This document shows, in pieces, positions 3,629-39,759 of a stretch of 64,000 nucleotides of DNA. Source of the stretch: Pocillopora verrucosa. Taxonomy: Eukaryota > Cnidaria > Anthozoa > Scleractinia > Pocilloporidae. The translations under genes and the position numbers were made by a program. Below the pieces are notes generated by a model. It saw only the letters and a program-made list of their open reading frames with translations. It did no database searches and was not told the DNA's origin. The stretch covers positions 22,171,793 to 22,235,792 of the forward strand of contig NC_089325.1 in NCBI RefSeq assembly GCF_036669915.1. Direction: 5' to 3'. Position 1 is the first letter of the stretch. Every line of letters begins with the position of its first letter.

Positions 3629-5668
3629 TCCGAAAACTCTTAAAGTCAGTTGCAAATTGAACTGGCTAATATCAAAAAGAAAATAGAAACTTAGAACTAC
3701 TGTCGATTTTAATTTCACTTCAAATACTTTTCTTTTTGTTATGTAGAAACAAAAGGAAGAAAAAGCCCTGAGCTCTGCAGTGGACAAAGCATTTATCCTT
3801 CGACATAATCCCTTAGTGTCTTCTTAGTCTCCTGTCTCGGCGAAGCGTATGCATTATGCAAGAAGAATTTACACCGAAATCTGCTGATAGAGAAATATTC
3901 GGTTGGCAAATTTGCTAGTGGAGAGGAAAACTAACGATTAACACACAGCATCAAGATTTGGCCAGGCCGGAAAGCAAGAGTCGATGTTACTTTCTTTAAT
4001 GAATGAAAATAAGGGGAAACACAGGAAGGAGGAGGTAAACGCTTCACGAACTTCAAACGATGACGAACTAGAAAGATTTCGGCAAAATATTTTGAAAATT
4101 CACCAGATATGTACAATAACTTACAAGTGTAAAAACTCCACATCGAAACACGCACACAGATGCACCACAAGAAGTGCACGGGGCGATTTGGGAAAGACAA
4201 TAGCTGGCGGTTAATATTTATTTTCGGTTGTCCTTTTTTTTTCGGCTTGACATCTCAAACTATTACTGATATAAAACGTTTACAACAATAATAGCCAAAA
4301 GATGAATAGTGGTACTCACGGCTGACCTCTACGAAATAAGTCTTGCAACTCACCTCAAATGGCAATAATTCTGTTTCAAAACACACCCCTTCGATTGGAA
4401 AATTAATTGCGATACTAGAATCAAGCTTAAGAATATTTATAGCTTCAAGCGTGAAAAGAAAGAAACTGCAGAATTAATTAAGACACACCCTTAGTCCGTT
4501 CCAGTCTCTCGCGTCAAGTTCAAATATTGGAAAAAAGATCGCCAAGCCTTCCTTGGTGGCAACCTATTGCTAGACTGCACTTCTCAATATTATTAAATTC
4601 TTCACCCGAAAATTACTACTTTTAAACTGATAGATGGAATCTCGAAGACAAAGGCGATAGTCACTACAGCGCCATTGGTTGAAAATTTTCTTGATATCTT
4701 CTGTTTGAGTATATTATTCTTTTCTGTAAATTTGGAATTTCTTCCAAGATATCTCTTTTAGTACAACTCTAATCGAATTGCATAATTAGATTATTAATCT
4801 TCTGAAATCAATGTTTCGAAAATGAATGGTAGAGTTGTATAAATTTTTTCTCTAGCATCTGATCCTCGATCATATTCTATTTATTTGGAAATCATAGTTG
4901 CTGAAACTCTTCGTGATAAAAAAAATTATCACCTAAAAACTGTTACATAACCAAATTAAGAACAGAAAAGAGTGTGTGTAAGGAGAGAGCAAAGGGGCGT
5001 GGCTCCTCCCATGAATTAGCAAGTACTCTTAGGAGCGAATATAATAGTTATGAATTCAGTGTGAAAGATTATTAGCAATAGATATTCGCCAGTAAATGGT
5101 ACTGTAATTCTCAGTCTTTAGAAATATATGACCTGAAGTGGGTTACAAGCGTAGAGAAATAACCTAGAATGGATCTAAAAATATCAAGGAGGTTTATTTT
5201 TATAAATTCTCTGTCACGCAATAAATGGTAAACGTTTTGTCATAGAAAAAATTCTATGATCAGGACTTGAGTTTAAAAACTTGTATAAAAATAGAACTAT
5301 TCATCAAGGCAGGCAAAATAAAAAAAAATTAAAAAAATGTTGTGTAATTGTTATCCGTGTAAATATTGCAATAAATATATTCACTTTCAAAGAAAAATTC
5401 GACATTATTCTCTGAAAGGAAGGTAAACATAGCATGGATCCCACACTGAGACCAGGATAAGTGTAATTACGCATAGTTGAAAATTATAAACAGCTACATA
5501 ACAAACCTCGAGAACTGTTGTAACTAGAGGCCAAAACCAGATGTCAACAGCAACAAAAACGAAACAAAAAAAAGATGCGATAATGTCTTTGACGTCAATG
5601 CCAAATGCAATATACACCGCACAACAAACTTATGGGCTTAAAAGCGCCGTATTTCTTCTGCAAAATTG

Positions 5669-5674
5669 TTTATT
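5669..5674 (-). terminator. Polyadenylation signal of AOS-LOX
   Basis: AATAAA on the minus strand, 22 bases past the TGA stop of the lipoxygenase gene, implying a very short 3' UTR. Confidence 0.55.
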
Positions 5675-5695
5675 GTTCAATTTTGTCTATTAACC

Positions 5696-8600
5696 TCAGA
5701 CACCAATGCTATTGGGAATTCTCTCGGGTAAGAGGAAGATGTACGGCAATTCCAATGATTCATTGCGGGCTTTGATCGAATCGGAGATCTTTTGAAGAGC
5801 GACTTGGAAACGAGTCATGGCGGCATCTTCCTCGTCACCAGTCAAGAGGCTGTGTGTAATGTCACCGATATAACGCTATGAGAGGAATAGAACGGAGGTT
5901 GTGTTAAAGAACTGTGAGCAAATTCACCACACCTATGGATGGTGTAAAATCTGACATTGGAGAGTTGCGTTGTAAAATATGATATCTTTAACTGAATAAC
6001 ATGATTATATTTAGGGGCTCTTTTTTGTCAGGCTGTCCCTATTGAGGAAGAAGTTCAATTTAAATTGAAAAGGAGATGTACTAGTAAGTTGCCGGGAATA
6101 TTTCTCAAGAGAAAGGAACGGGGAAGCCTAAAACTAAGTTCCTTAAAATTGGGGCAATCTGGTGAAGGTCGGGGTGAATTCCTTTTACGTTAGGGGAAGA
6201 ATCCGCAAAGAGGGTTGAGCGCGAAATCACTGGTTACTCGTGGATTCAAAGCCTAGCTTGACAGAAGCTTACCTCATCCTCTGCAAATTGTGTAAAGACG
6301 TAACCCAACGCTACTTGTTGAGCAGCCTGGGACTTGCTCGGCAGTGTGTCCATAATGGACTTGAGAGTTGTCTCGTTTTTCTTCGTAGGAGGCGGTTGGC
6401 GCATCACCGAGGGAGCATTGGGAACAAAACCTGCCACATCTAACAGACCAAAGTTTACTGCAGCATGCTGACATGAGCACGTGAACACCAAGCATGTTAG
6501 CACATGAATGAGTTGATTACGTGTTTCAAGGCCGTTTGGACATCCGTGGTCGTCGCCGACCTCCCCCGCTAAAAAGCCGTTGTCATGAGCATCTTTAATC
6601 CAAGCTTGGAGCTCGTTATCGTTGGTGACGTCATCATCTGACTTGTAATAAAGGATGATGACCTCTTTTATGAAAGATGTAATGGCTGACCAAAGACAGA
6701 GGGCATCATCCCTAAGAAACAGAAAATTGGTAATTTTATCCAGGCAACTAGGGTTTTGGAAATAAGAAAAACAGTGATAGTGATGATTACACTTTTCAGC
6801 TCGTCACACATACTAATTTTCCTTTATAACGAAATTGGGGAAACAAAAGGTCTGTGAAAGGTAGTATATATTCACGGCATTGACCAAAAATTAAGAAGCA
6901 GCTTGTAATGATCTAATTCAAAGATGATTCTGAGGTACATTTCTTAGCAATCACCTGAAATAAAACTTGGGTAATTTCTCCGGATCATCAACACCTCTGT
7001 CTTTTAAGGCGTCGGGAAGTGAAAGCATACCAAACTTGAAAGTCTTGAAACCTTTCTTAAGGATCTCTTGGGCTCTTTTGTTCTCAGCTACAAAGCCAGT
7101 TCTAAGGAAGTTATTGATTGCCATCACACTGCGAAGGTGTGGAAAAAGGAGCTGAAAGACAGGGTGAATCGAGGGCAGCTGTCGCCATACCGCCACAGCA
7201 AATGGTTCCATTACAAGGTGGGTTTCGAGTAGATGGGTATTTACCTGCAGAAAGTTGAAGAAAGGTGTCCTTCTCTATCAATAAGAGTTAATAGATTACA
7301 ACTCAGAAAGGAGCGCAAAATCAGCGTGTCAACATGTTCAGTTGTTTTTATGATCTAAGTCTGAAGGAAATTTATTTTATCGCAAAGAGGTCTTAATAAT
7401 TTACGTATACTAAAGAAGCAATTCCAGAACTGCTTAACTGAAGGGGAACAAACCTAGTCAAGGATAGAGATGAAAATAAAATGTACCGCAAATATCAACC
7501 TTGAAACACGAGGCATTTTCTTGTTACAAGCCACCCTTTCATGGGCTGTTTTTGATCTCTTTGTAAGATGTGGTTCTAATCTATGAGAAATATGCCTAAT
7601 GGACAACAAGTTCCATTTCTAATGATCGCCTGTTGAGCAGTCTCTCTTTCATCAGCCTATGGTCCGGCTACAAGTTGACGACTCATGACGTTTAAATTAA
7701 AGGGGTCCACTAATAAAATAGCATGATCTAGAGAAATACCTGCTGTACTAGAGAGTCAGCACTACGCAGCCACATCTTTGCCAGCAGCCAATCATACTGA
7801 GAATCACTTGGAGTCCATATTGGATTGGTGTCGCTTGGTTGCTGGAAAAACTGAATGGCAATGGGAACCAGGTCGCCTGAAGCGTTGACATAAAACAGAC
7901 CCAGAGGTTGTGTAGAGTAAGTGCCCTCTCTATCTGGAATTCCTTCAAGCATCTTGTAATCAACAATGTACACGTGACCTGCCTATTGAAAAACAGTTGA
8001 ATTGACATTATGATGTGCAAGAAATAGTTGTAAAAAGAACTTTGCAAAATTTATTTCATAATAATTAATATTTCTGCACTAGACCCCTGTTTCTCATTTG
8101 CAAGACAGGAATCCTTCGGCATTGCCAATATCAAATCTAGTATACGAGCCATCTCGTCTTTCAGAGAGTCGGATATTTTCTTTATCTTCCACTTCAACAT
8201 CGTTTTGTCTAGGACGTTTTATTTTTTATAATAGTATCCTATGAAGCAGGTTGTTTTGACGCGCACTTTGCACGATGCGTTTTATAGTAAAACATACCTG
8301 CATTTCCTCTTGCAGAGTCGTTCCTCGATTCATACAGCTTTTCACCATTTCTTCAGTGACAGGGAAATTTTTTGGCAACTTCTCACAGCGCTGGATGATG
8401 TTCGGATTTACGCCGTTCAAGAACATTGACCCGAATACCTCGTCGGTCATCCATCGGTCATCTTCGACTATCTTCAGCCGACCACGATTAAGGCTCTGAA
8501 GGATCTTTTCAAAATCATCGAAATTGTCCCAGCTGTCGAAAAGTGTCATCAAATAACCGAGACCGAGTTTTAAAATCGCTTTTTTAATGTCTTCCTTTAT

Positions 8601-11600
8601 GGTGCTCCTAGCTTCATCAGAGAACTGCGAATCCCTTGGAATATCTGCATGTGTCGCTGCTTGAAGATAACCAGGAAGTTCCTGGTACACCTCCTGATTT
8701 CCCCATTTGTAATACTCCTGGCGATTTTTTACTTCAAAAATTCGTTGGTTTTTAACGGCATCTGGCTGCTCTTGGAATGGAAGAGTAGCTGTAAATAGAG
8801 TATGGAAAACATGCTGAAATTTATCTATTTGCCATACTATAATCTAAGTATTCGATTGACGCTATTCGTATTTATAAAAAAAAAATAAGATAAAGGGGAA
8901 GATACTTCCACAAAAAGTGTGTTACTACTTTTTTTCTACAAGTAAGATATTGATTTTGCACCATATTGAAATAAACTTGATTTGGGCCTAAGACTTTTTG
9001 TCCGACCAAAAATATTATCCATTTGCTGAGTTGGCTAAACTTCTACAGGTCCCGTATGGGTCATCCATGTCGCACAGGAATAGGGTTAAAGGTGTGACAA
9101 CGGAATGTGCTTTGGTCATTTTGCTTAGGAATTTTCATTTAGGTGAAAAACGTTGTCATGTTAGAGAACCCGTATAGAGGGAAAGGAAGTGTTACTCGAT
9201 TCGACCGTCTTCGAGGGAAAGCGAAGTATAGATCTATATCTGCCTGCTTGGAAAAACAGATGGGGTAACAAATAGAGACAACCTGGAGAAGCACTCGAGT
9301 CGTGATAAGGGATAGTAAAAAGTTGATGTTTTCGCCGCCTACCCTGGATGAAGAGCAGAAGTAAAGATGGTGAGTGAGGGTGACATAGAACTGAATACGA
9401 TAAATTGTGGAGAGCTCTGAAGAGCTACAAATCGAATTCACTCATAGTTGTAACGAAAGCCATGCAAAACCTTTAGTAAGATTTCTCCCGCAGATGGAAA
9501 GATATTATAAATATAGGAACATACCTCTCCCTTCAAATACCACCAAATCAGATAGCACCCAGCGATAACATGGAAACTCAAATGGCTCATCCTGAGAGGA
9601 ACTTATCACCGCGATCTTGTTCACGAACCAATCAGGATTCTTGTACCACCAACCACCTTGGTCATTATGAAGATGCACCATAAGAATTTCGCCAACATCC
9701 ATTGCTTCAACGGAATATTCATCAACGTCTCCTCTCTCAAAGTCATTTCCCCATTTATCCAGTTTAATCATATCTGTCTTTCCTTTGGTGCCTGAATAAC
9801 GATAAAATATCAGTATAATGATATCTTGACTCCATATATGGCTTACCGATCAGACCAAAAATCATTTAATGTGATTCTTCAGTATTGCGCATCCTGTACT
9901 ACGCATAAAAATTACGTAATCAGGCGAATAAGCGCGCATTCCGAAAACACGGCATTGTTTTCAATAAATGGACCAGGTAGAGAGGTACGATGGTCTTTAG
10001 CTAGTGAACGAGCACAGTGATCTATATTTTTTATTGCATAATCTTGGTGTGCAAATTATCCCCTTCAAATTGGACAAATTAAAAAAAATACATCGAAGGG
10101 AAAAAAATAGCTAAATGCATACACAAATCCCGCTACTCGATGATGCAAATTATGACCTTGAAAGCAACGATTCGAGGAAGGTTTTGAGTCGATGTCGTAT
10201 AAAATTGCGTGATTTTTTCACAAATTTAAGGAAAGTTAAAAAAAATTGATGGATAACTTCTTTTTCTGAGGAATCACCTTAAGAGTTTAGGTACGTCACC
10301 TGTTAATGTAATAGAAATGGAAGCGTCCGTTCCTGCTCCAGACTGGCCTCCAGTTTCCACGCGGATAAGATAGGATGTCAGGTGCTCTGGGACAAGCTTG
10401 TTTGATCTGTTTTTACGTAGCTTCTGAGACCAAACGTACACGTCATTACGAATTTGGACAACGACATTGGGATCGTCAACAGATACGGCTGGTAAAACAC
10501 CAATTGAGGCAGGAAGATTTTTATGAATAAATTTCAGGCGTTCCGTTGCCGTCGGGGACAATAGTGACGTCATTTTGATGTCAGCCACATCAAGCCATGG
10601 ATGTGTTTTCTCGTCCCATTCCCTCCCAACTTGAAGGATCGTTGGAGGATCATTTTCCTTCGGTTCATGGAGTTGCAGCTGTAGTTTATAGTCGAGTGGT
10701 CCCTTGGAAACTCTCTCTTTGTACTCACGCTTGAGGTAGTCCATTGGTAAAGTCTCATCGGGTGACCTTTCATTTATCCTGTAAGGAAATAAAATATCCA
10801 GTGGAAATTTTTGTACTAGCTTTTGTTTATTCCGGAGTTGGAAAATTTGCATCCCGTATTTGCAGGAAATATACTGTATGAAATCTTTTTGCTCGAAGTA
10901 AAATTCAACTTTACGAAGGTTCGATTTCTCTAACTCGTGGTATTTACATTTACCACTATATCGGTTAGACTTGACGTTCCCAACTCACCATGGCTGCCAC
11001 TGGACTTCCTCAGACAACAAGCCTGTTTCTGGTCGCCCATCAGTGGGCAGCAGCCGGAATCTGACGTAACGCTTCACTTCATCGAATGCTTTGAAGTCGA
11101 AAATCACTTCTGAGTAATATCGCTGGTCGTAAAAGGATTCAGGCTTTTGGCGTAGACCTCCAATGTTGGCTTTGAGACTGTAAACGTAAGAAAGGAAAAC
11201 TTAAGAATTCCATCGTCGACTTTGTTGATGAATAAAAAAAATTCCAAAGTGGAGTCTTCAAGTCACAATTCTACAATTGGGGTACATACTTTTCTTCAAG
11301 TTCTTAAAAAACAGGAATCCGTACACGTAAAAAACACCTTGCAAAAACCCTTCGGAAAAGGGGTGAATTGAAAATTTCAGAATTCTTCCACTTACTGATC
11401 AGGCCCGAGAAGCAAATAAGTTTTCAAATCCTTTGTGATATTGGCTCTTACTGCATCAAATATGGCCTGAGAACTCCATAATGGTGTTGTCGGTCCAGTC
11501 CCCATAATGAGATCGCACGGACTATCCATTTCATCACTTCCGGCAAACCTTAACGCCCCGCCGCAAAAGTCAGTCAGTACGTCATCCACGGACTTGATAG

Positions 11601-12897
11601 TAGAGTGACGGAGGCAGACTGGGTACGTAGTTCCAGGAGTAAAAAACTCACACGCTGGAAATTGTGGATTAGAGACAATTGTCGCAATCCCCTCAGATCC
11701 AACTCCAACTGGGTGAGTTGCTCGTTGTCCCTTAACTAAAACGATCGCGCCAAAGACTAACTTGAGTTTGGTAGTATCATATGCAATTCTGCTTTGAGCG
11801 AAAAGTCCAGGTGGAGGAAGAGGCTAGGTGAAACGAAGGAAAACCCGTAAGACTAAGTTTTCGGTTGTGCGAGGTACCAGTGTTGTAGGACTGTTTTCAA
11901 TAAGGGAAATAAATATAACAGGAGCATAGCAGAATATATGGGTTGGTGTAGAAGTTTTTTTGGCATTAGACATTTTTCAGTGAATACGAAATTAAGGGTT
12001 TATGGGATGGACTGATATCTCTTCCAAAAAGAATAACACAATTTCACCTTTTCGAATTCCTCAACTTTCTCTCTGAATAATTCTTCCCCCATAAGTCCTT
12101 TGTAGACTTCATAACCAAGGTTACGCCCTGAAATGAAGGAAGCAAATTCAGACAAATTAATTAACGCTACTAATAAAAGTGGACGATTTTCCGGTAAATT
12201 AGAATCTAGAATTGAAGATATGTAATAGAGAAAAACAAACAAGGCAAACTTACAAGGTGTGTTGGCTTTGATAACGACCCTGAAAAAAGAAGATAGAATC
12301 GATAAACTTGAGGTGGTTAAAAGTGGGTGTAGGATAGGTGATAAAAGCCGAAGTGGTTAGGAAGGTAGATGTGTAGGAGTGTGGGGTTAAGTTAACGACA
12401 CCGCACAAAATTACGAAGAAAAGGTCATTTGATAACTTTAAAAAGAATACATTAATTCGTGGATAACATCAAGATGGTAAAGAAGGAGGGGAGAGATCCC
12501 TTCAGAAGCAAGGAAGTCACCTTGGCAACTGAACCACAGCCACGTCCAGTCACCTGTCAACACAGCACCGTCAAACCGGTCTGGTAACCAATACTTTCCC
12601 ATAAGTGGCGAGGGGAGGGGGGGAGGGAGCACATGGTAAGGCTCCTAAAAACATCCCCTGGGCTCCTCAAATCCTCTTGAGTAAACTGCTGGATTGACTT
12701 AAATTTAACCATGCCTATATTTTAGCCTAAATTGATTTGAATATTAGATGTTTAAAATCACTACTAATGTATGCAACTAAAGTACGTACATACCCATCGT
12801 CCTGTTTGTCATTTTTGCCAGACTTTTCTGACTTGTCCGGCTGTATCGTCTCGTTAGAGATGACGACAGCCTCTTGTGAGCTGACGCAACTTCCCAT
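5696..12897 (-). CDS. Allene oxide synthase-lipoxygenase fusion protein (12 exons)
   Basis: Exons (-): 12794-12897, 12254-12279, 12048-12127, 11396-11823, 10989-11177, 10300-10778, 9525-9791, 8298-8788, 7740-7982, 6955-7244, 6273-6711, 5696-5875. They sum to 3216 nt, giving 1071 residues. An N-terminal catalase-related haem domain (about 55-400) is followed by PLAT (about 405-490) and a lipoxygenase domain to the end. Haem motifs seen: distal His107 in RATHPV, and Arg386/Tyr390 in RNDVY as proximal ligand. Iron ligands seen: His773, His778 (HLLETH), His948 and Asn952 (HAAVN), and the C-terminal residue, here Val1071. Coral fusions make arachidonate hydroperoxide and convert it to allene oxide. 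Length matches the Plexaura enzyme (about 1066). Oddities: the MGSCVSS start predicts myristoylation plus S-acylation; Gly178 stands where the family has a distal Asn; the lipoxygenase domain lacks about 11 residues including the Gly-rich GGGGH segment. The start is the only in-frame ATG of exon 1. Family call very sure; activity uncertain. Confidence 0.93.
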
Positions 12898-15859
12898 TGT
12901 GCTATACGCGAGGTTACAGTTTCTATTCCACAAAGGCTATAATGAATTATGGACGGAATCTAAAACAGGACAAGAAAATAGTTATAACTGTCTTGTTTAT
13001 AAAATCCTTAGTGGGTTGGGGAAAGCGCAAATGCTTTCAATTAAACGTATTCACAGTAAAGAAGCAAAGAAAATGAATTAGTTAGGGTGGTTATCTTGCT
13101 TGTTAAAAAACTCTCAGCATCCACCCGGAAAAATTTGGTTCAAAAATGCGAGTACACGATTCACTTAAAACACCTGGGATTTCTTACCACCAGGTCTTTT
13201 TAGAGACGTTATTTGAAACACACATTTGCGATTATCTCCCGAATTTAGATGCGAGTAATGTCAAAATTAATTTATATGATTAGCTGAATTGTTCACGCAC
13301 TGTACGTGGTCCTTAAGTTTTGATCCATTGGAGGAAACACGCATAGCTGACGTCACAATTTTTGTTTTTAGTCACATAAAACAAATAAATTTCATCAAGC
13401 CGTCTGCCACTTTTTTTGTTCCTACCACATTTTGACGTCATCGGTTATCTACTACTATACAAACGACAATATTTCATCCCTTTTTTGTTTTAATATAATT
13501 TAGGTCACGTAACTGTGGAACTAAAACCAACCCTAGTATCAGTCAATTCGAGTTTGTGTTCATTCCTTTTTAGCTTAATTCAAGCGTTGACAACTCTCGA
13601 GGGAAAATTCACTACGTTATCCGTTGGATGACATGTTCATTAGGAAAATTCCTTTGACAAGATGTGGGTCGGTTTTCTAAAAGGCTAATTTATCATTGTT
13701 TTTATTTTCTTATCACAGGTTGCTGCTTCCCACGTCCCACAACAAAGCAGTTTGCTATGGTGACGGAAAAGTCACCAAGTACAATGTGCTCTTTCAACCA
13801 TAACAGCATGACAACATTACTGAACAACAAGTTTAACAAACAAAAGCCTCTGAAACCCTAATCTTAACAAATCCTCTAAGATAAAAGCAGACATGGTGGA
13901 TTAGATAGGTCGATTTCGTACGTTTGCGTGACTGTACGGGTGACTAGATAAAATGTCTTTGAACGCCTTTGTAAACAAATGAACGAAGTCGACTTATGTA
14001 AATTGCCTCAAGTGTTATCTAGCTCTGTCAATGAGGGTTCATCATGTTCATTTACCTAACCTACTGGCAGCTAATGTCACGTTCATTTGAAACCTTCCGT
14101 TTGCATTTCAATGCCCACTTTTGCAATGTTTGCTTTACGTTGTGAATGTTTCACGGTCATCGAATACAGTGAGAAAACAAAATAACCCCACTGAACTAGT
14201 TTATTCACGTATGACCTAATCTAACGGCAAAAGGCCTTTATCCTTTGGTTTGTTTGAAGTTTGACTTAATAAAATCAATGATCAAGGCTAAGGACTCCAT
14301 ATTAGACGCAATTCTTGAGAGTTCACTGTTTCACCGATTCTTCAACAGGCGTTAACAGCTGGTCTGGAGGCAAAGCGTTTAGTAGTAGTTTGATTTTAAT
14401 GATATTAGTCTCCCAAATTGATTTTGAAAAGTATTAACGTATGCACAGGTCTCTATCGAATCCTAATATGCCAATTTTATCCAGGATGCATCGATAACGT
14501 AACAATGCAGTTTTCGTTTTGCAGGTAATTAAGAAAATAGCATAGAATATTTGTATCATGAGCTCATGTCAAATATGCAAATCTAAAACCTGACACTGTT
14601 TGGCTCAAATTACTTCCAATGTCTTAGGTTAAAGAAACAGGCAAACTTACATCACTGGTACTTACTTTGATTAACCTTAACGACAGCTCCAGATGATAAA
14701 GGCGGCAGACTACCACTATACTGACTCGTTTTTATTGACCAACCAACTAAATAAATATATATTACGTCATGCAATGTTTCACAGCGAATAAACATAACGG
14801 TTAGCCTTGTACCCAAGCCTCCATTCATTCACCAGCGGTCTTACACAACAAGGTGAAACCCGTAAATGACTGTAAATATATGAAAATCATATATGTGAAC
14901 TGCGGTTGAAGAAACGAATATGGAAGCAATCCTCACAGTTAAGAACACTACATAAAGAGTAGTGAGAACAAGGCCTAAAAAAAAACTCAGGCTTATACAA
15001 GATTTTAACCCATGACCTCTGTGATACTGGTGCAGCGCTCTACAGGAGGCGCTAATAAGCCAACTGGGAAGTTGGCCATTATGTTAATTCCAAATAAACC
15101 CTTGAAGTGGTGAATACATGACTGTGAATCTATGAAAATCATATCTATAAACTGCGGTTGAAGAAACGAATAAGGAAACGATCCTCGCAGTTATGAACAC
15201 TACTTTAAGTAATAGTGAAAATAAGGCCTAAAATATGTTTTTTTCTTTGATACCTCGCAAGAGAAAATTAACTAATTTTTGGACACGTCAGCGATAAAGT
15301 CGCAAGAAGTTGCGGAAGACAGTCAAAACAAAGAAAACATAAAGGACTTTCGTGGGGTAATTCTGCTACATAGAACAGTTGGCTTTGTTTCCTGTCTCTC
15401 GAAATAAGCAAAGCGATGATCCTTTTGCTACGTGATAAATCCTTTACTAACCGAGCTTGTTCTGTTAAGATGATTAGTCCCGTTCTTTTCTGGCGTTCGT
15501 CGAAGTCCATGGAAAAAAAAAAAAAGAACTAAGCTAATATCCATCCATTTTGACCTCACGCTTAGCCAATGACGCACATATATTTTTGGGTGCTTTTGCA
15601 GGTTCACCATCCTTCGAGTCGTTTACTGAACATTTCAACGAAATACAGTTTGGATGGCGAACTTTCCAGATCAGAACGTTTTGACCAGACCCAAAACCTT
15701 AAATTGTTCGGCAATATTAGTCAGTAATGGGTAACCTTTAGAGAAATGGCAGTTTAAAATTAGCGATATTTGAGTTTGTACGTCTGGTGGTATAGATGGA
15801 AAGAAAAAGACCAACATTTCTTTTTCTCGACCAAAACATTTTAAAGCCTTTAAGAACGT
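12898..15859. other. Intergenic region upstream of AOS-LOX
   Basis: About 3 kb between the AOS-LOX start and the end of the sulfatase gene. It should hold the AOS-LOX promoter on its left side, but no clear TATA box was seen close to the ATG. No coding exon is supported. A direct repeat pair at 14.86-15.23 kb is listed separately. Confidence 0.5.
14859..15233. repeat. Direct repeat pair flanking a tRNA-like segment
   Basis: Two copies of about 120 bp, 14859-14978 and 15109-15233, share AACTGCGGTTGAAGAAACGA and end in AAGGCCTAAAA. Between them lies CCATGACCTCTGTGATACTGG followed by GCAGCGCTCT, which resembles a degenerate tRNA-type box and suggests a SINE-like remnant. No intact tRNA fold was found. 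Confidence 0.5.
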
Positions 15860-15865
15860 TTTATT
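15860..15865 (-). terminator. Polyadenylation signal of the sulfatase gene
   Basis: AATAAA on the minus strand about 85 bases after the TAA stop of the arylsulfatase gene. Confidence 0.5.
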
Positions 15866-15949
15866 TTGGGATTGATGGGAAATCTTTGCGCCGACAAAAA
15901 TTGACCGATTTCTATTAGAGGTGGGCATTTTGAAGAAATATCTATACCC

Positions 15950-18900
15950 TTATTTGGCATTGCAAGTGTCTCTCCATGATACCCATGCTTTATTTTTTAT
16001 GGCTACAGCTAAAGCCATTATATCGTCCGGAACGATCCCCGGTGGGACAGCGGTCTTCCAGTGTTCATGTATTCGATCTTTCAGGTGTCGCACAATGTTA
16101 GGATACTTATGGCTTACGTCGTAACGTTCTGTAGGATCAGCGGTTATGTTATATAGGGCCAGTTCTACGATGTTTGTTTTTTGATCCTAAAATTAAAAAA
16201 AAAAAAAGTTATCGTTCGTCTAAAATATTTTCTCGCATTCTGCTGCTTCTCAGATTCAAAACTTTTGTTTGAAAAGGGGTACCGTGCGGGTAGAGTATTT
16301 ACCAAAATAACCGAACACCCTCCCTGGTGTGTGAAAACATAAATCGTAACAGAAGATCAAGGGTCTGGTTTGCTGGGAGCGCGCATGGGGAATTTTGATC
16401 ACTTCCAAGAAAACTCAGTCAAACAAACAAGGAAAAGTCAACGACTACGACATGGAATGCGTTTGAGCAAGAAGATAAGAACAAGGAAAACCCATTACCC
16501 AGATTTCTTCCATGTCTGGAGCGATTCCACCTTCTTCTGGAACCTGGTACCAAGTGGCATTGGGTACATGCATCAATAACTTCATGTCACCAACACGAAT
16601 TGCTGCTCCGCTGTACCATGTGTCATATGTCAATAAAAGCCCTGGTCTTTTCTCAGGAAAGTCAATATTATGGAGAAGCTCTGTCCTGGGTGAAGGTGTT
16701 CCACTAGAAATGGTTTCCCATACATCAAAGCCATCCACTGGCATAGGGTTTGAATCCAATGTGGCACCTACAAAACAACACTAGCAAGTTACCATGACTG
16801 TGCTTAGGCATTCAAACCGTCTCCAAACGTAGGATTAGCAAAGACAGTAGGAACTGTATATGTGTTTGTGAGTTAAATTTCGGCCAAGTTCTGGCCGTCC
16901 TTTACCCGACAAAAAAGAAAACAAAAAAAACAACAAATAGAACAACAACATTACTACTGAGTATCTGAAAAATATCCCAACATGTAACCCACTCAAAAGA
17001 CAGAAACCAGTGCATTTTAAAACGTATCTTCAATGGTATTGAAGTGAGTACATTTATATGCCAGTTACGTTCAATTTGATCAAGTTAACTATTCCATCGC
17101 TGCAAAACCTAACGTTAGCGTGGAAATTAACACCTCACCAAAATAACCAAGTAAAACCTTCTGAAATGTCTAAAAATGTCTTCTTCTAGAAATGTCCATC
17201 GAATGTGATTGGACAACTCTTCAGTCTCGCGATTTTTTGAAAGACCTAACATGTATCCTCTGTAATCGTCCCCAATTACGTTCATCGGTGTTCCCTTGCG
17301 GGTTCTAGGATTTCAAGAAACACCCACTCAGAAAAAAAAAGGTCCCCCTAAGGAACAGCTTTGCGTGACAATCCTTGGCAGTGATTTTGAACTTCACTCA
17401 CATCGTAAGTAAGCGCTAGCCTTCAAGGACGCCCTTTTCAGTTCAAGAAAACGGAAATAACTATGTCTGTAGTACCTGCTAGGTTAACAAGAGTCGGATA
17501 CCAATCAGTTACGTGAATGAGATCACGTGAGATCACCCCCTTCCGTTTTAGCATCTGACCATGAACAAAACCGCACGCTTTCACGCCACCCTCCCACAAC
17601 GTCTTCTTGTATCCACGCAGGGGGTAGTTGAAGCCGCGGTAGAAAGGGTCTCCACCGTTGTCCGAGCTAAAGATCACAAGAGTATCATTCCACAACCTAG
17701 AGGAGTCAATAAAAAGAGCAGTAACTAACAGTAATTAGGATCAATATGAGGATGATGGCGCCTATTTAACAAAGATATCCCTTCCAGACCATCCCAAACC
17801 AAATGACCTTCTGAAAAAAAGATGTAACTTCTCAGTGGCATTAAATTTCCCCATCTCACCCAGTTTTAATACCTTGCATTTGTTCTTTGGGTTTTCACGC
17901 AAAGCCTCTTCCCAAATGGGAGCGTCTTTCTGACACAACGTGTTGTGGGGGGGGGGGGGGAGTGAAATCACAAAAGAGGCCATGTCCTCAAAGACCCAGG
18001 GGAGCACACAATGACGGTTTTAATTCAATGCGAAAGTTTATCTGATGGATGTCTGCACTGAACAGAGACCGCTGTTGAGGTTTTCTCTCTCCCAAGTATT
18101 TTCCTAGGGATCTCCAAAGATGAAGAGAAACATGAAAAATTTCATATGAACCTATGATTTTTAGTTTTAGTCTCTGGGTGCCGACATTAGTCCACATTGA
18201 AAAATCACAATGAAGATGATGTAAACAACAACAACAAGGAAAACAGACAAAGTAGAGTAATAAAACATGTAAATACTCCTTTATCTCCCAGTTGATTGTG
18301 CATGATTAAATATTTGCATCTATTTTCTTGATATTTATCAACATAATATTAACCCTTTCCACCCAAACATCAGTATATATATTCTCCATACTGTTTTCCA
18401 TACATTTCCTAAGGTGGGTCAAGGTGCTAACAGGGAGAATTTGTTTGACAATCAAGAACTTCTTTAGTTGGTGTTCATTTCCTTTATTCTCTTTAATACA
18501 AGGGATATAGAGAAATTAGATGCTAATCATTCTTAGAGGTCAAATAGTTACTCAGGACGATCTCATTATACAGCAATGTTCAATATTTCCCAAACCAAAC
18601 CACAAAAGTTGTCAGTAGGTAGCGATAAAAAAAAAGCCCTCACCCTTTCTCTCTAAAAGCCTTTGTTATATTTCCAATGGCTTCATCCACCACATCCATC
18701 ATGGCCGCATAAGTTCGCCTATCCCTGTCTTTGATGAAGCTGTATTTGTTCAGGTATTTTTCAGGCGCCTGAATTGGGTCGTGGACATTCTCAAATGCCA
18801 TATATAAGAACAACGGCTTAGAAGAATTATGCTCTTCAACAATTCTCTCGACTTCCTACACAAAATGTTGAGATTTGATTCAGGGAGAAAAAACTTAAAC

Positions 18901-21900
18901 TCTAGACCAAAAAGCCATTCAGCTTTCTTTCATATGGTTTTAAATTCCAGAAATAGTTAGAACATAATGGGATTATGTGAGCTTAAGGGCTACTGGTGAA
19001 AAGAAGACAAACTATGTGCCAGCATTAATTTACTAAGAGAGAACTCTTATTCCAAATCACCTGCACATAAAGGTGGGAAGTGTATTGTCCTTTGTACCCT
19101 CTGGCAACTTTTTCACCCTCAAAGAGGTCTAAAAAGCCATCATGGGTGTGGTTGAAGTGGTCGTGTCCATAGTTGTAGAATCCAAAGAAGGAATCAAAGC
19201 CTCTGTGTGTTGGAGTACTCACAGATGTATAGTGACCTAAATGCCATTTTCCAACAAGATGTGTTTTGTAACCTGAAAATGGCAACATAATAAAATGAAA
19301 TGAATTCATGAAAATAATTAGTATAGAATTAAGGTGGAAAGTAATTTGTTAAAATGGAGAAAATGATGGCAACATAATATGTTAAAATGAATTAATAAAA
19401 TGAAGAATTGAGTAATCAGGGGTCAACTGAGGTATAGCCAGAGCCATAATGGGGTATTTTCTTACTTGTCGCTTTTACCTTTAACTCCCACGATCTCATT
19501 AGTAATTCTCCTCACTTTCTGCCATATAGTTGTTGTAGTGTTAGTTTGGAGAATTTGGTACTGGATCAACTATTAATCCCCTAAATAATATTTTTCTTTC
19601 CTATGATTCTCATCACTTGTCTACTTGATATTGTATTGATATCGTAAGGAGAAATTCTGTCTTGGTGACTCATGGGAATTAAAGTATTTAAAGTTTTTTT
19701 TTTTTAAAACCAACAATCAACCTTTCCTTTAGGTCAGCCTTCCAGACCTTTAAATTAAGTGAAAATTAACCCAGGTATGTTGCATGCAGCATCTTTAAAA
19801 TATATATTTTTTTTCCTTTTGGAGCCAGGAGCTTGCACTATACTAAGCATTTTATTTGCTTTTGCCTTCTGAAATTGTCAGATTGAAACACTTCCCTGAC
19901 CAAAAGTTACTTAATTATCCAACCTCAATCCAATTAGCTTTTTGAAGCAGAGATCAATATGAACTGATTGATACTTTTATTACATAATAAAGAAGCTTGT
20001 AAGGGCACTACTGAGGGATTTTGATGGAATCTTGGAAATACTTGAGTACTACATAATTCAGTGATTTAAGTGAAAGCACGGAGACAAAATTTCAATACTT
20101 CCTGCTCAGGTAAAAAATATTTGTGCATGTACATAAATGTGTTCAATGCTTGTGATGATTTAGCCTTGCAACTTGAATATGCTTGAACTAGAGAATTTCT
20201 CTGGCAAATTTGTCAGTGCTATTCTTGTATACCACAATTAAAATACTCTGTGCAATTAAAATACTTTGTGCAAAGAACTCTCTAAGTGACATGCTGCAGA
20301 CTTAGAATCTGCATAATTTTAGTTTACTAATACATGGTTGTTTATTAATAAATAGTTATTTTTATTCATTTATATAGCTCTTTAATTTTACTTTTATATA
20401 TCAATCTTGGTTTTATAATTAGGAATCAGGTTACCAAAACCTTGAGCTCTTAATGGTAAAATAATGTTTCTATTTTACAACAGCTATAGTAATTATAATA
20501 AGTAAGCATACAAATTCCTTGAAATGGGGGGCATTAATATTTTCTGGTTTTGTGTTTTGGACCATTTTTTAGTGTTTTGGTCATAGTGGAGAAAAATATA
20601 GTTACTGTAGTCTTTGTTACAGTTTTTTTCTTTGTAATAATTCTAGCTTCCACTTGAACTCAAATACAAATTCACATCCACCTATGTATTCTAAGTTGTG
20701 TACATTTTGAGTTTTGATGACTTTGTGAGTGGTTTTGGGTTTTTATGTACATTAAAGTTGGTTCATACTACAAGCCAATTTGGAAGCCTTTGCCTATTAA
20801 CTCTGAGAAGTGATAACATGTAATTTCTCCCTATAATATCTATACATTATCTTGTAAACAGGTAATGATAATATTAAAAGTTTTCAGGCAGATGTTGCTA
20901 TCTTGATCTACAAGTACAGTTACACCAAATTCTTGTAACTAATTTCAAAGGAAATGTGCAGCAGCTGGAGGGGGAATTAGAAATCAGATCTTGGGAGTTA
21001 AAGGATTAAAAGTAACATAATTTAGATACTCAACCTACCTACTTCTTTTAACTTCTCTGGTAGAATGGAGAATTCTAGAGGAAGTCCAAAAGGGGTTAAA
21101 CTAAGAATTGCTCGATGTTGTAGGCCTGAAAATGTAAAGAAACAGCTGTCAGTAATTCTTCATTTGAATTTTTTTGGTTAAACTTTGCTTCAATACTGTT
21201 TGAAGAAACTAGCTTATAAGGAATATGTCCTGGATTTAAAATGGAAGGTTAAAGATTTCAAGTTAACTTTGTTTTTCAAACTGTAAAATTTTGCCACAAA
21301 CATGGGAACAGGAAAAAAAGGGATCTCCAGGGTAAATCAAAATGGAGAAGTCTATAAACAGATAATGCAGGAATTGCAAATGACTGGGCTGTAATCACTT
21401 TAAGGAAATTCTGAAACCAGTCTTCCACTCATCACATTAAACTTTGCCAAAAAATCCTTTTCTTCAACATGCCCCCCCTGAAAAGTTGAGATGGGAAAGA
21501 TGGGTGGAGGGGGAGTGGCATGGACCTCTAAGTCTCCTTTGTCCCCACATGATCCAGTTGACAGCAATCTTCATCCCACATGTATACAAACTGAGCTTGG
21601 TCTTCTACAATCCATTTCTCTGACACTGATATGATTAGCTTGTTCACTTGATTCAATAATGTTGATTAAGTTTCAGTAAAGTTTAATTTACTTGTCCCCA
21701 CTTTAAAGTTACCCTTACCCTCCCCACTAGAAATTGAATGAACATAGCATCTCGGGTTCCTAGCAGTGGCTGCAGGACAACTTGGTACAGAAGTTCCTCT
21801 AAGGTCACAAAAGTTGGATCAATGAAAGTTTCTCAGCAACTACGCACCTACCCCTCCCCTAACCCAAAATTAACCCTAGCATGATATCAGCTGTTGAGAT

Positions 21901-22261
21901 ACTGAAAAGTTACCCCCTAAAGGCCGGCCAAAACATGTTTTTCGTGAGTCTTAAGGAAGAAAACTAGTAAAACATGCGCACCGGTGTGTATTGGATACCG
22001 GCCTGTCATGAGAGATCCTCTAGTTGGTGTACAGTATTGTTGGACATAGTAATTCTCAAGGATAACTCCTTCACGAGCAAGTCTGTCTACATTAGGAGTC
22101 TTTATTTGCGAACCGTGATATCCAACATCGCTCCATCCCAAATCATCGACCAATAGTAGCAATATGTGAGGCTGTGAAGCTAGAGCTTGTGTCCAGAAAA
22201 TACAACAAGAGATGATGGAGACGACCGTCGCAGTAAATGCAACGTTATTGAACAAAAACAT
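15950..22261 (-). CDS. Arylsulfatase B-like sulfatase (7 exons)
   Basis: Exons (-): 21982-22261, 21039-21125, 19061-19272, 18644-18855, 17476-17696, 16499-16767, 15950-16186; 1518 nt, 505 residues, frame closed at every junction. Residues 1-29 form a signal peptide (hydrophobic, ending near ALA), so the enzyme is lysosomal or secreted. The sulfatase fold follows. Asp39-Asp40 of VDDLGWSD bind calcium. Cys77 in CTPTR is the CxPxR site converted to formylglycine. VGKWHLG, SSDNGG and the Lys of the [10 protein letters not shown] stretch complete the active site. It should hydrolyse sulfate esters, in ARSB the N-acetylgalactosamine 4-sulfate of dermatan and chondroitin sulfate. The order of motifs and the LLHNID block fit the ARSB/ARSI/ARSJ group; the exact substrate is not readable. 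The start is ATG 22261; a GTG one codon earlier was not used. Introns hold several MITE copies. Confidence 0.93.
18349..18530. mobile_element. MITE copy (TTAACCCTTT family, subfamily 3)
   Basis: Starts TTAACCCTTTCCACCCAAACATC and continues with the TTCTCCATACTGTTTTCCATACATTTCCTAAG core also seen at 23991-24160 and 54811-55027. It ends in ATTCTTAGAGGTCAAA. Lies in a sulfatase intron. Confidence 0.6.
19469..19690. mobile_element. MITE copy (TTAACCCTTT family, subfamily 2)
   Basis: Begins ACCTTTAACTCCCACGATCT and ends CATGGGAATTAAAGT. The interior matches the copy at 26326-26536 (for example TTGGATCAACTA-type and TTGATATTGTATTGATAT strings). Lies in the sulfatase intron between exons 2 and 3. 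Confidence 0.65.
20790..21008. mobile_element. MITE copy (TTAACCCTTT family, subfamily 1, reverse orientation)
   Basis: Reverse-oriented relative to the copy at 24160: it ends CAGATCTTGGGAGTTAAAGG and contains the complement of the CTTGATCTA...AACTTATCAGG core. Lies just upstream of sulfatase exon 2. Confidence 0.6.
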
Positions 22262-22620
22262 CACCGTAGTCTAACACCTTCTTCGATCCTCTTGAGAGAG
22301 GAGCGCGGGCTCATTTTCCTGGAGGCTGGTGATGCGACAAGGGGGCAAAAATTTTACAACTTGAGTTTGATTGAAGCATGCCTATTATTGTTAAAAAATA
22401 TTAATTACAGTTAAAATCATACGATAAATAGAAGTTAGGATTAAAAAAAAAAAAAAAAAAAAAAAACAGAAGAAGAAGATGTACATATCTCAGGGTTTAG
22501 CGATTGTGTGACTGACTACCTGACCCTGCGTGACCGTGACTGTATGACAAATGTGTGGAGGCAAACCCCACGCGAGCAAAATATGAGCCTGCGATAAAAA
22601 TATCGGGAAAAAAATCCAAA
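22262..22620. promoter_or_regulatory. Shared divergent promoter region, sulfatase / PPME1
   Basis: The start codons of the sulfatase (22261, -) and PPME1 (22621, +) lie 359 bp apart, head to head. The interval contains an uninterrupted A-tract of about 23 bases near 22443-22466 and no TATA box that could be assigned to either gene. A bidirectional promoter is inferred from spacing only. Confidence 0.55.
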
Positions 22621-25600: not shown

Positions 25601-28600
25601 TGTTTCCCTGTGAGTGCTTTACTGGATGTCTGCATGAGAGTGATTATGAAAAATTGGTTGAATGCATGATCAATGTATAGGAGATGAAAAATTTTGTGTC
25701 AGTTTCCCCAAACTTGTAGTCAGGGCCCAATATTAGTAATAAAAATAAGTAATTAGATGTATATTAAAGACAACATGAAATTTAGTTACAGGTGTTCAAA
25801 AGTGACTAAAAAAAATTATTTTTTGTTACTGTTACATCAACATCCTTTAACATAATTGGTTCCTTGAAGCTCACAGGCTTCCTTCAGCATTGCCCTTGGA
25901 AAATAGGTGGCCTTTTGGAACATGGATTGTCTGCTGACTAATATTTGAACATATTTTTGCACAAAGTTTCGGCTACTGTGTATATATTGTAGCATGGCCA
26001 ATAGCATACATGTCCTACTACTGAACATATTTTATAATGTACATACTTCAATAAGAACCGTTTGTTTCTCACTCACAGAGATGTTGGAAATGTTGTACAG
26101 GCTCTCTACGGAGATTCCCCTCCACCCATACTTCTGGTTGGACACAGGTAAAATGCACTTATTATGAAATGTCTGGAGCAAATCCTTTTATTTTGATTTG
26201 TCCTTAATGCTTAATAAGAGTGTGTATAGCAATATTTACAAAGGAAAGTGCTGTTTATCAAAGCCAATGTTTTAAAAATGTGTGGGGTAATAGTAACAAG
26301 ATGTGTTTGTGTTGATCACAAGGGCTTAACCCTTGAACTCCCAGATCAAATTTGTTATTCTTCTTACTGTCGATCATACAATTCTTATAATGTTAGTTCA
26401 GAGAATTTAGTATTGGATCAACTAATCATCCCCAAATTGATATTTTTCTTTATTCCCATTACTTATCTGGTTGATATTGTATTGATATTGTGAGGAGAAA
26501 TTCTGTCTCGGGTACTCATGGGAGTTTAAGGGTTAATGATAGTAATTTCTTGTTTTCAGCATGGGTGGGGCCATTGCTGTTCATGTTGGAGTTCAAAAAC
26601 TGTTGAGTACCTCTTTAGCTGGACTAGCTGTTATTGATGTAGTGGAAGGTGAGTGAGAGAGACTAATAAAAAAGTACATGGAGTGCATTTAAAATGAATG
26701 TAGTAATTAAAAGTAACACCAGAGTGATCACAATAATATTGCTGATCAGATTGAAGGAAAATATCAGAAGTAGCCAATGACAACCAGAGCTAAAACAGGA
26801 AAACTACCTCACAATGGCACAATGTAATTTACATCTGTTTGGTCAAGTGGATGACATGAGTTTTCTAGACCAATTAAAGACTGTGGTGAAAGAAGACCAA
26901 TTTAATCCTAGTATAATTTCCAATTTATATCTGCTTACACCAGTTTGGTATGAACAAGTGGGGTGGAAGAAGTCACTAGTCAGTTGTGTTAAGATGAAGT
27001 AAGGTTAACAATTTTCAATGAGAGCTAAATACTTTCAGCAAGAAACTGTGTCCAGGCAGTAACTTAATAGGCATATGGGTATTATTTAGAAAAAGCTCTG
27101 GATTTATGGAGAAATTTGTTTGTTTATATACATATAGGGACGGCGATGGAAGCATTGTCTGCTATGCAGTCTTTTTTGAAAAGCAGACCATCTTCGTTTC
27201 AATCACTGGAAGAAGGAATAGAATGGAGGTATTCTGAAATGGGATGAAGGACCAGTCTAAAACAAGATTTCCTTCATTTTCCTTCAGTTTTCATAATCCA
27301 AATGACAGAGGCCAATCTACCATTTTTGATATCTTAAAATTCTAACATGACTCAGAGGCTAGGGAGAATAAAACAGAATAAATTTATTTATCATCCCTCA
27401 ACCTCAATGTGATTTCTTTTGTTTTATTCTTCCAGGGCTAAATTTGAAGCAAAAATTACTTGAGTTTACATTTTCAAGGGGTATAGCCAATGGTGACTAA
27501 ATGTTATATGATGTGACCTTTCTTCATGTTTTTACAATTGCAGTATACGAAGTGGCCAGGTCCACAATGTGGAATCAGCGCGTATATCCATGGCTGGACA
27601 GTTAGTCAGGTGAATTTAATATCTTCTCGTCTGAGTCAGTGGTGGAAAGCTTTTGACAAAGACATTAATGCTTGTAATCTCTGTTGTTTTGGTTGATTAA
27701 GTCTGTAGTTATATTTACATTCAAGTACGATTAAAATTGTGTTTAAAACCAACAGATGTAGTGGTGACAGTGAAGATAAAGTAAATAGCGAGTGTCCAAC
27801 TTCTCCCCCACTGTCACATGCCTGTGATACAATTAGTGAAGAATGTGAAGAAACAGTCAATATAAAAACTTCGACTGTGGTGCATGCAGGGAATAGTCAG
27901 GTGGATACAGGGCAGAAGGTAAGCAGCAGCAGTGCCCTGTTTCTATTGAAGTTATCTTTAATTCTAAATTTTCTGGACATCCAATTACAACTTTCTTGTT
28001 CCCTTTTACCTCTCTCCAGTTCCCTCTTACCCCTTCCCCCTTCCCTCTTACCCCTTCCCCCTTCCCTCTTACCCCTTTCCCATTCCTTTTTACCCCTCCC
28101 CTCTTCCCTTTTACCCCTCCCCTGTTTCGTTTTACCCCTCCCCTGTTCCCTTTTACCCCTCCCCCATTCACTTTTACCCCTACCCCTTCCCTCTCATCCC
28201 TCCCCTATTCCCCTTTTACCACTCCCCCTTCCCTGTTACCTCTTCCTCGTTCCCCTTCACCCCATCTCCCTTCCCACTTACCCCTCCCCAGTTCCCTTTA
28301 ATCCCTTCCCCTTCCCTCTTACCCCTCCCCAGTTCCCTTTAATCCCTTCCCCCTTCCCTTTTACCCCTCCTCCTTCCCTCTCATCCCTCCCCTATTCCCC
28401 TTTTACCACTCCCCCTTCTCTCTTCCCTTCCCTCTTACCACTCCCTCGTTCCCCTTTACCCCATCTCCCTTCCCACTCACCCCTCCCCAGTTCCCTTTAA
28501 TCCCTTCCCCCTTCTCTCTTACCCCTCCCCCGTTCCCTTTTTCCCCTACTTTCTTCCTTTTTACCTCTTCCTATTAGATTTAGGGGGGTTACGTATGTTG

Positions 28601-31332: not shown

Positions 31333-33320
31333 TCGTGGATCGTATTTCTTCTTGTTGTCAAACGAGTACGAGCAGGAGAGAGTTTTGCCAAGTTCATTAA
31401 ATTTCTGTTAATAAGCCTTTACACGTTAGGTTCTCTTTCTGTACAGATTAAAAGACCAGCAAACGCCAATCGAGTGGGTATATAGTCTTTGTATGGCAGC
31501 TATCGAAACCAACTCTTCCCATTTTGTATACTATTCCCACTTAGCTATCGGAGCTTAGCATTACGTTACGAGGTGTATTGTCAGTCCTCCTCTTATGAGA
31601 TGAAAATATGCAATCCCCTTCTTTCATAGTCAGCATTCATTCAGTTTACACGACATTTTCTAGATGCATACAGCGGGTAAGAGAGTGGCACTTTTATACA
31701 ATCCTTCTTGTCCAAGATCGCTGCATAATAACCCGTGCAAGGTTTGAAACAGACTATTTTGACGCTAAAATACGAAAAAGTCTTGTAAAGCTTTTTTTCC
31801 CCTCTTTTTTCCGCTAAAACGTCCTCTAGTCGGAAGTGAAAGTTTGCACCAGTCAGGGCAAAGTAGGTCCGCAACGCGTGCGGATCCTAAAATTTGGGGA
31901 GCAATGTGGCATTAGATCTAATCGGAACGATGAAAAAATTGATTCATTAACAAGATAAACAAACTCACAATAAATGGTATCATATCTGGATATCATCTTA
32001 AGATTTTTTTTCTGAAAAAAAAAACAGAACATTTATTTCGTCATGTTCCTTCACATATAATCCTCTCCCACAAGCCAAGTTCCGTCTTAATAGCCCAACC
32101 CCCATACCCCTTAATTGTATTCTGCTATAATTATACACGCCTTTATTTCATTATTATCATTATCATTATATAAGTACAAATTACAGACATAGTTAAAATT
32201 ACTACACAGAAACGAGGATTGGCGCAATTGCTGTTGTAAGCATTTTCACCAAAATTAACATTACAACTGTTCTAAAAAATATTAATTATATTAACAATAA
32301 TAAGACTTTTAAATTACTGCACAGCCTCACTATTATAATGAAGTTAAATACAGTTACTATTGGGAAAACTAATACAATCATTGTAATTATTACTAATGCA
32401 AAAAAAAAAAAATTAAAATTCAACGGAGCTGCAAAGAAAACTACAGTGAGTTCAGTAATTTAAAACTTACAAGAGCTCTAAGCAGCTATGATTAGTGACA
32501 AGTTTCCTGAAAAAAAAGGCAAAACCAGCAAAAGTAAGGAGACTCTGTACGCAACAATATAAACAAATAAATGTGTCAGTCACTCTTCTCGAAAAGTTAA
32601 ACTGGATAAGAAAATCCTTTAAACCTTTGCACTTACGAAAATTCTCAGCAGTATTCAGAAATTTTCAAGCAGAAAGATGATTAGAAAAGGGAGTAATATT
32701 TCTGAATTTAGCTGTACAAAGCAGCAAATTGCAACTCCATCTTAATTATCGAGATAACGCACACCTTTGGAGATTACCAAGGTTAGGTTATGCTACTCGA
32801 AAACGTTTGCAAAGTTCATTGAATTTCTTTGCGTGGAAACTGAATTCAGTTCTTCACTTCATCTTCACAATTAAAATAATAAAACACTTTTAGAATAGAA
32901 TCGTCGGTCATGCGTGCAGAATTGTCCTGTACGAGTGTGGTCGAATTTTGTCAACAGCAGCCTACGTGTAAGTTGGCAAACAGGGCCATTTAATCAAGAA
33001 GTTCCTGAAAACTGTTCCTTATTTAGGCGCTCAAACAGAAACTTATTCCGACAAGTGTGCGTTAAAATAAATGATTCCATGGGTTTCATTTCTCAAAAAA
33101 AAAAAAAAAACTAAAAAAAAAAGAGTAATCACTCCACCCCTAGAAACAGAATAAAAAACACATTGAAACACATCAAACTAAGGCTACTCTTGCAAATCTG
33201 AATAGGGTGGAGAGGATGAGGGTTCACTAGGTGACTCATCCCTCCTCTAGGTCTCGTTTTATACATGATTAGCGATGTGACGTGCCAACCGCACCCAGCT
33301 CTCAACTTATTCAGTTAGAC
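31333..33320. other. Intergenic region between PPME1 and TRIM copy 1
   Basis: No coding exon recognised. The same sequence lies at about 43158-45921 in unit B, so conservation between the units reflects recent duplication, not function. A stop codon in the TRIM frame at 33270-33272 shows that the coding frame cannot extend far upstream without splicing. Confidence 0.5.
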
Positions 33321-38436: not shown

Positions 38437-39759
38437 TGGAGTCAGTGCAAATCTGAATAAAATGAACAATTTCCTGTCACTCATCAGTGGAAATTACTAC
38501 TGAATACCAAACGTTAATAATACCTGTTTTGTTACAGTTTGCAACAAACATTTTGTAGACACTGGTTTTAAGTGAAATTATTGTTTCTCTGACTGATAAA
38601 CATTATTTACAAGTACACTTGCTGCTTTTTTTGGGATAATATTTCTGTTGCGTTACATTTCTGATACATTTCATTTCAATTAAAAGACAAACACTTCAAA
38701 ATACTTTTAAAAGTATATTCACCTATTAGTTACTTGAACACAACAATGTAAATATACTAACTTTGTTTTACCTATGTTTTGTTCCAAATTGATTGCATAT
38801 TACCATTAAATGAAAAACATAATGATTTCCTAGGAATTATTACAACCAGAGACTTTTTCTTGCTTTGCAAAACTGCTACTGCGTTTGCATTACAGTTGTC
38901 TTGTGTTACAAAGACTTCAGATACTATTCAATTTTGTTAAAAACTATTGGCTGTTGTATTTCAATTCTTTGATTTAAATATTCTGCTACAAAATAAAAGA
39001 AACGTTCACTTTAATGTTAGATTCTTTGCAGTACCATAACACAATAAAAGTTATTTAAACAGTGATGAAGATGTAATCACAATCATGATATTGATGATTG
39101 ATATTGATGATCCCTTACCTCCAACTGGAGCATTGGACATTCACCACTTCAGTTCCCCATCTTTGTGATGCCTTGAGCATTCCATAGCACTGCCTTTCGG
39201 GAGATGTTTCTAGCCAGTTTAACAGTATTAAAAAATAGGCGCCTACAGCAGATTCCATTCCACTGCAGCAGACACAAGTACCCATTGGGTACCTATTTTT
39301 TCTTTCGTCGTCCTTGCGTTTGTCTCCATTTATTAGCTGTATGTGTTTATCTTTCAGAGTAGTAAATAAAATATTATTTGATTTGGTGTAAAAATTAGTG
39401 TAAAAATGTGCAATCTTGGAAGAAGAATCTTGAAGATTTTTTCTTCGTCGGTGTTGATAGATCTCATTCAAAGAGGCCCACCCAAGGCTGTGTCGGCTCT
39501 CCCTGTGACTAAACAGTGAGAGTACCTGCATTGTGTGTGAGTGATTAAAACTGTTTTTCTTCAAGAATTCACGGCCCTATTTTTTTAAGCTGTTCTCACG
39601 ACAACTTTAATCAACTTTTGTCACAAATAATCAAAAGGAGAATTTTCAACGGAGAGTGGAAAGCATTCCTGGGTAGCCTTCAAGAAGGCCCTAATATTTT
39701 GTTAACTGTTTCTATTGAAGTTATCTTTAATCCTTAATTTTCTGGAAATCCAATTACCC

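Follow-up and report, generated by a model that had tools for sequence, protein, structure and literature searches.

The fusion gene on the minus strand of the window, that is, the entire stretch of 64,000 nucleotides analysed here, located inside contig C14, encodes a catalase-related allene oxide synthase (AOS) domain in which the distal asparagine of the haem pocket, Asn137 of the Plexaura enzyme, is replaced by glycine. This change of a distal haem residue is real, fixed and family-wide in this genome. Loss of the distal Asn most likely tunes the rate or binding, not the type of reaction, and the most probable product is a fusion enzyme that still works, albeit more slowly, and is possibly re-tuned. 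To the whole explanation, whereby a hydroperoxide made by the lipoxygenase (LOX) half would be opened to an allene oxide by the haem half, more slowly or with altered binding compared to the Plexaura enzyme, we assign a probability of slightly less than one half (about 0.48). Together with T2 and T3, the window gene forms a tandem array of three AOS-LOX fusions in an anthozoan genome, which the gene family and PMC5793058 mark as stony-coral-like.

Gene model and haem site

Splicing of 12 exons separated by 11 GT/AG introns (window 12897-5696; Table 1) yields a product of 1071 aa, in which the catalase-like haem domain is followed by a PLAT domain (PF01477, E 7.6e-24) and a LOX (PF00305, E 6.3e-70). 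The product length and exon 4 boundaries given in the first-pass annotation were thereby reproduced exactly, and the RATHPV, MGTG and RNDVY motifs occupy residues 104-109 (with His107), 177-180 (with Gly178) and 386-390, respectively. The monofunctional catalase profile PF00199 gave no match to the haem domain of the window gene at E 10; it matches three of the five alignment members, with the best E of 0.00019.

Table 1. Features of the AOS-LOX fusion gene, in window coordinates
Feature	Position	Strand	Basis
Exon 1; start ATG 12897-12895	12794..12897	-	GT donor, in frame
Exon 2	12254..12279	-	AG/GT ends
Exon 3; AOS domain begins	12048..12127	-	Splicing, alignment
Exon 4; AOS, distal side of the haem, with RATHPV and MGTG	11396..11823	-	Splicing, phmmer
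His107 codon (= distal His67 of Plexaura AOS)	11713..11715	-	Splicing, alignment
Gly178 codon GGG, replacing distal Asn137	11500..11502	-	Splicing, alignment, codon reading
Exon 5; AOS	10989..11177	-	Splicing
Exon 6; AOS end and PLAT start; proximal Arg386/Tyr390 at 10450-10436	10300..10778	-	Splicing, alignment, Pfam
Exon 7; PLAT	9525..9791	-	Splicing, Pfam
Exon 8; LOX	8298..8788	-	Splicing, alignment
Exon 9; LOX; Gln768 codon CAG 7745-7743 (= His752 of Plexaura, a conserved non-ligand His)	7740..7982	-	
Exon 10; LOX; iron ligands His773 and His778 kept; GGGGH loop absent	6955..7244	-	
Exon 11; LOX; iron ligands His948 and Asn952 in HAAVN, 6467-6453	6273..6711	-	
Exon 12 and stop; C-terminal Val1071 in place of Ile	5696..5875	-	

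The AOS domain (residues 43-407) aligns by phmmer with the Plexaura AOS (PDB 1U5U) at E 1.5e-77. Against both 1U5U and 3DY5, the Plexaura AOS-LOX, MGTG lies opposite MNTG and RATHPV opposite RATHTV, so that Gly178 corresponds to Asn137. The absence of the distal Asn, the retention of distal His107 and of proximal Arg386/Tyr390, and the residue numbering, all reported in the first-pass annotation, thus hold; Thr106, which pairs with the distal His, is retained too. Overall, the Plexaura homomalla cAOS-8R-LOX has the same order of haem domain, PLAT and LOX (38.8% identity in AOS and 50.7% in LOX), and its Thr66, His67, Arg349 and Tyr353, its haem arginines (Arg64, Arg102 and Arg360) and its four side-chain iron ligands are all unchanged in the window gene. 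By contrast, Gly stands for Asn137 and Gln for His752, there is no GGGGH loop, and the last residue is Val. In addition, residue 62, which adjoins the RxTH motif, is absent, and this counts against the explanation that we favour. The GGG codon of Gly178 is three changes away from AAC or AAT and is present in four copies, including that of the window; a base-call error, which is for these reasons very unlikely, was rejected.

What is published on Asn137 bears directly on its loss. In the portions of PMC5617202 used here and below, H67, T66 and N137 are the distal residues, with N137 at 5.0 Å from the hydroperoxide in docking; earlier mutants are described there as indicating that N137 is not important in catalysis per se but perhaps supports substrate binding, and the work of Gao, Boeglin and Brash (2008; ref. 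25 of PMC5617202) reports, by its title, that Asn137 mutations alter the rate and not the chemistry. The first-pass annotation anticipated a different opening of the hydroperoxide once this side chain is lost, which these results do not support, because the Asn137 mutants keep the chemistry.

Its other suggestion, that the domain may be a lyase, finds no support in the residues published for the hydroperoxide lyase (cHPL) of Capnella imbricata. The Capnella cHPL-LOX shares the fusion architecture; according to PMC5617202, none of the catalytic residues defined for cAOS has been lost in cHPL, so that loss of Asn is not a mark of a lyase. It carries Pro65, Phe150 and Tyr-Ser176-177, all of which are absent from the window gene, where we found Ala65 as in cAOS (Gly65 in T2 and T3), Ile150, which is neither the Leu of AOS nor the Phe of cHPL, and Ala-Asn where we place 176-177 (175-176 by the Plexaura count, one below PMC5617202). 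In that study, F150L and YS176-177NL shift cHPL towards AOS, one of the two yielding epoxyalcohol- and trihydroxy-type products, whereas the reverse change, L150F, leaves the cAOS products as before, making these positions imperfect markers. Among the substrate-channel residues listed in the same source, those at 56, 59 and 175-176 are unlike their Plexaura counterparts, and Ile occupies position 150, so that specificity could have moved. One of them, Asn217 (Plexaura column 176), is an Asn special to the array and to the related gene S; if the numbering is rightly matched, it falls at the site of the fatty-acid tail, not of the haem, in the published docking.

Column 137 across the genome and selection on the paralogues

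We searched the genome (353 Mb in 52 contigs) for exon 4 with the window gene and with the Plexaura enzyme, and both searches led to the same 10 loci. Among the matches listed, none of the ten copies has Asn at column 137, which is instead occupied by Gly (four copies), Tyr (three), His (two) or Ser (one). The loss is hence not special to the window gene, since the other paralogues among these matches share it. The Gly copy at C14:131,614 belongs to an inverted copy of the window region that shares 98% identity with it and may be the other haplotype, so that at most nine of the ten loci are independent. An intact paralogue overlooked by the first query was considered as well; the Plexaura query, which spanned exon 4 and some of exon 5, gave nothing with Asn among the best 11 candidates scored, a search that divergent copies may escape.

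Outside the fusions, both catalase loci found, on contig C1, read GNNTPIFF, the motif in which the distal Asn of catalase presumably sits. Three bacterial relatives (L037-L039), 33-34% identical to the AOS domain, differ from the window gene in having Asn at column 137 in all three cases (MNTG or MNSG). Because the catalase loci and the bacterial relatives keep Asn, it is likely the ancestral state, which would have been replaced by four different residues in the copies seen here. In the more distant catalase-like protein 3E4W, profile alignment places Gln in this column, and variation at column 137 is therefore not confined to corals. No paper on natural loss of Asn137 was found in a text search limited to the open-licence literature, Asn137 goes unmentioned in sections 6 and 7 of PMC5793058, and no relatives were confirmed in viral contigs. 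One of the bacterial relatives, L038 from Thiohalocapsa halophila (NZ_NRRV01000070.1), is a predicted counterpart of the coral fusion: a single 841-aa frame combines a cAOS-like domain, in which no Tyr aligns with Tyr353, and a LOX with SHLLRTH and HAAVN.

In the tree, the window gene groups with T2 and T3, then with S (C14:458 kb), and the cluster on contig C3 stands apart; T2 was read from exon 4 only and T3 from exon 3 only, their first exons being masked or not found. The RxTH motif is absent from C3b-C3e, where Arg349 and Tyr353 are replaced and the LOX ligands are kept. C3a retains RxTH, Arg349 and Tyr353, has His at column 137 and lacks Arg360. The C3 cluster in this respect resembles one stony-coral AOS-LOX group in the sections of PMC5793058 drawn upon here, with altered T66, R349 and Y353. 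Some members of the family thus seem, from these replacements, to have given up haem chemistry, though not through the residues that the window gene carries. The C3 gene at 23,806 kb (C3:23806000-23815900, L052) comprises LOX exons, the linker and PLAT, with no AOS exon in 9.9 kb.

Both halves of the fusion are under purifying selection. The dN/dS between the window gene and T2 is 0.165 in AOS (bootstrap 0.110-0.237) and 0.208 in LOX (0.161-0.264), and that between C3c and C3e is 0.204 (0.144-0.291) and 0.141 (0.108-0.186), respectively. The AOS domains at C3:23823500-23881400 (L014-L018), without the distal Thr-His and proximal Tyr, remain constrained; the value of 0.204 indicates that the fold is kept without the haem site, and constraint is consequently no proof of catalysis. 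Gly at column 137 has been kept by the window gene and T2 over an AOS dS of 0.556, and this array value is lower than 0.750, which hints at gene conversion. Furthermore, AOS identity exceeds LOX identity in the array (83.5% versus 75.6%), whereas LOX is the more alike half in 25 of 28 pairs, C3c-C3e being the third exception beside the array. Dividing the dN/dS of AOS by that of LOX gives 0.79-0.81 for the array and 1.45-1.76 for C3, and the contrast was at least 1 in 26/1000, 40/1000, 30/636 and 31/621 bootstraps of four non-independent comparisons (the smaller denominators reflect bootstraps dropped for saturated dS); it served as a test of an abandoned reading of the LOX half as dead and carries no weight here. 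According to PMC12960093, a pocilloporid allene oxide synthase-lipoxygenase-like protein (XP_027058640.1) is planula-enriched in Pocillopora acuta.

The lipoxygenase half

The iron ligands of these LOXs are H757, H762, H943 and N947 together with the C-terminal Ile, and all fusions covered by the cited sections of PMC5793058 keep them. Counting along the 3DY5 rows, we located the four side-chain ligands of the window gene on NTH, RTH and HAAVN (His773, His778, His948 and Asn952, in the same order), and T2 and T3 agree. The change at VQQVNTH was at one point read as loss of the first ligand, His757; the altered residue is His752, a conserved non-ligand His that is Gln768 here, and the reading was rejected. 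With it fell a dead LOX half and the idea that the C14 array and the C3 cluster had undergone complementary losses. Of the 12 exon-9 matches in the genome, those in the window gene, T2, T3 and the inverted copy have Gln, and seven have His; the twelfth match, on C10, stops short of the site. The GGGGH loop present in S, C3a, C3c and C3e is likewise absent from the array genes, which end in Val in place of the Ile (Thr in some) of animal iron LOXs, although the Val1071 carboxylate could still bind iron. Absence of the loop, Gln at column 752 and the C-terminal Val could harm the lipoxygenase.

At the column that we take to be the Coffa (chirality) site, the window gene has Leu, and T2 and T3 have Ile. 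In some fusions described in PMC5793058, Gly is likewise replaced by Leu or Ile at this site, and, within its sections cited here, sequence analysis is unable to predict the specificity of these LOXs.

Explanations for the lost Asn and genomic surroundings

In the explanation that we favour, the LOX half would still make a fatty-acid hydroperoxide, perhaps of other position or chirality, and pass it to the haem half, which would bind haem through Tyr390 and open the hydroperoxide to an allene oxide by means of Thr106/His107, the opening being slower, or substrate binding altered, compared with the Plexaura enzyme. This explanation is suggested by retention of the haem residues other than Asn137 and of the LOX ligands, by the low dN/dS, by the unaltered chemistry of the published Asn137 mutants, and by the cAOS-like Ala65 along with the absence of the cHPL residues. 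A new reaction of the AOS domain (hydroperoxide lyase, epoxyalcohol synthase or peroxidase-like), with Asn loss as a part of it, as the first-pass annotation proposed, appears somewhat unlikely. The departures from Plexaura in the substrate channel would suit it, as would the two substitutions that move cHPL towards AOS, one with epoxyalcohol and trihydroxy products (PMC5617202), but the mutants, the missing Pro65, Phe150 and Tyr-Ser pair, and the catalytic residues kept by cHPL itself all argue the other way. Joint remodelling of both pockets is a separate, unlikely and more speculative reading: the LOX, without the GGGGH loop and with Leu/Ile at the chirality column, would deliver a different hydroperoxide to a haem half altered by Asn-to-Gly and by the Asn at the tail end of the channel, giving possibly a product unknown from octocorals, and the distal Asn, which catalases, bacteria and the octocoral fusion keep, would have become dispensable in all the AOS-like copies of this coral among the matches listed.

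It is also conceivable, and in our estimate unlikely, that one or both halves of the protein (in the first case the haem half) have become pseudoenzymes retained for a different role, for instance binding of lipids or membranes via PLAT or partnering active paralogues. Loss of the distal Asn and the three changes in the LOX half point in that direction, and the constrained C3 domains illustrate that the fold can outlast haem chemistry; however, all three genes of the array preserve the seven other haem-site residues examined, some or most of which are changed in the C3 genes, and every side-chain iron ligand is in place. That the gene is a pseudogene or an assembly error is highly improbable: the inverted copy near the other contig end does have frameshifts in exons 6, 11 and 12, but the window copy consists of 12 clean exons, its GGG codon recurs in four copies at three steps from Asn, and dN/dS is well below 1. 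The natural Gly, Ser, His and Tyr variants at the Asn137 position, some with an otherwise intact haem site, would offer direct tests of the role of this residue, and the same enzymes could test whether coral haem-lipoxygenase fusions branched into new oxylipin products.

The inverted copy itself (C14:121079-137900, with L012) corresponds to window 5607-22300, is ~98% identical and includes both the fusion gene, with frameshifts, and its sulfatase-like neighbour; it represents either a retained haplotype or a terminal duplication. Open frames at window 15950-22270, on the minus strand, resemble by eye the exons of an arylsulfatase gene, and an interspersed repeat of ~200 bp at window ~19478-19684 has dozens of genome copies, mostly 86-89% identical. 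Short repeats rich in Pro, Leu, Ser and Phe, open in several frames, are found at 27709-28500 and 39731-40435 and are probably repeat DNA rather than genes. Finally, two similar open frames on the plus strand, at 33273-35543 (756 aa) and 45874-48105 (743 aa), appear by eye to encode RING/B-box/NHL proteins of the TRIM type.
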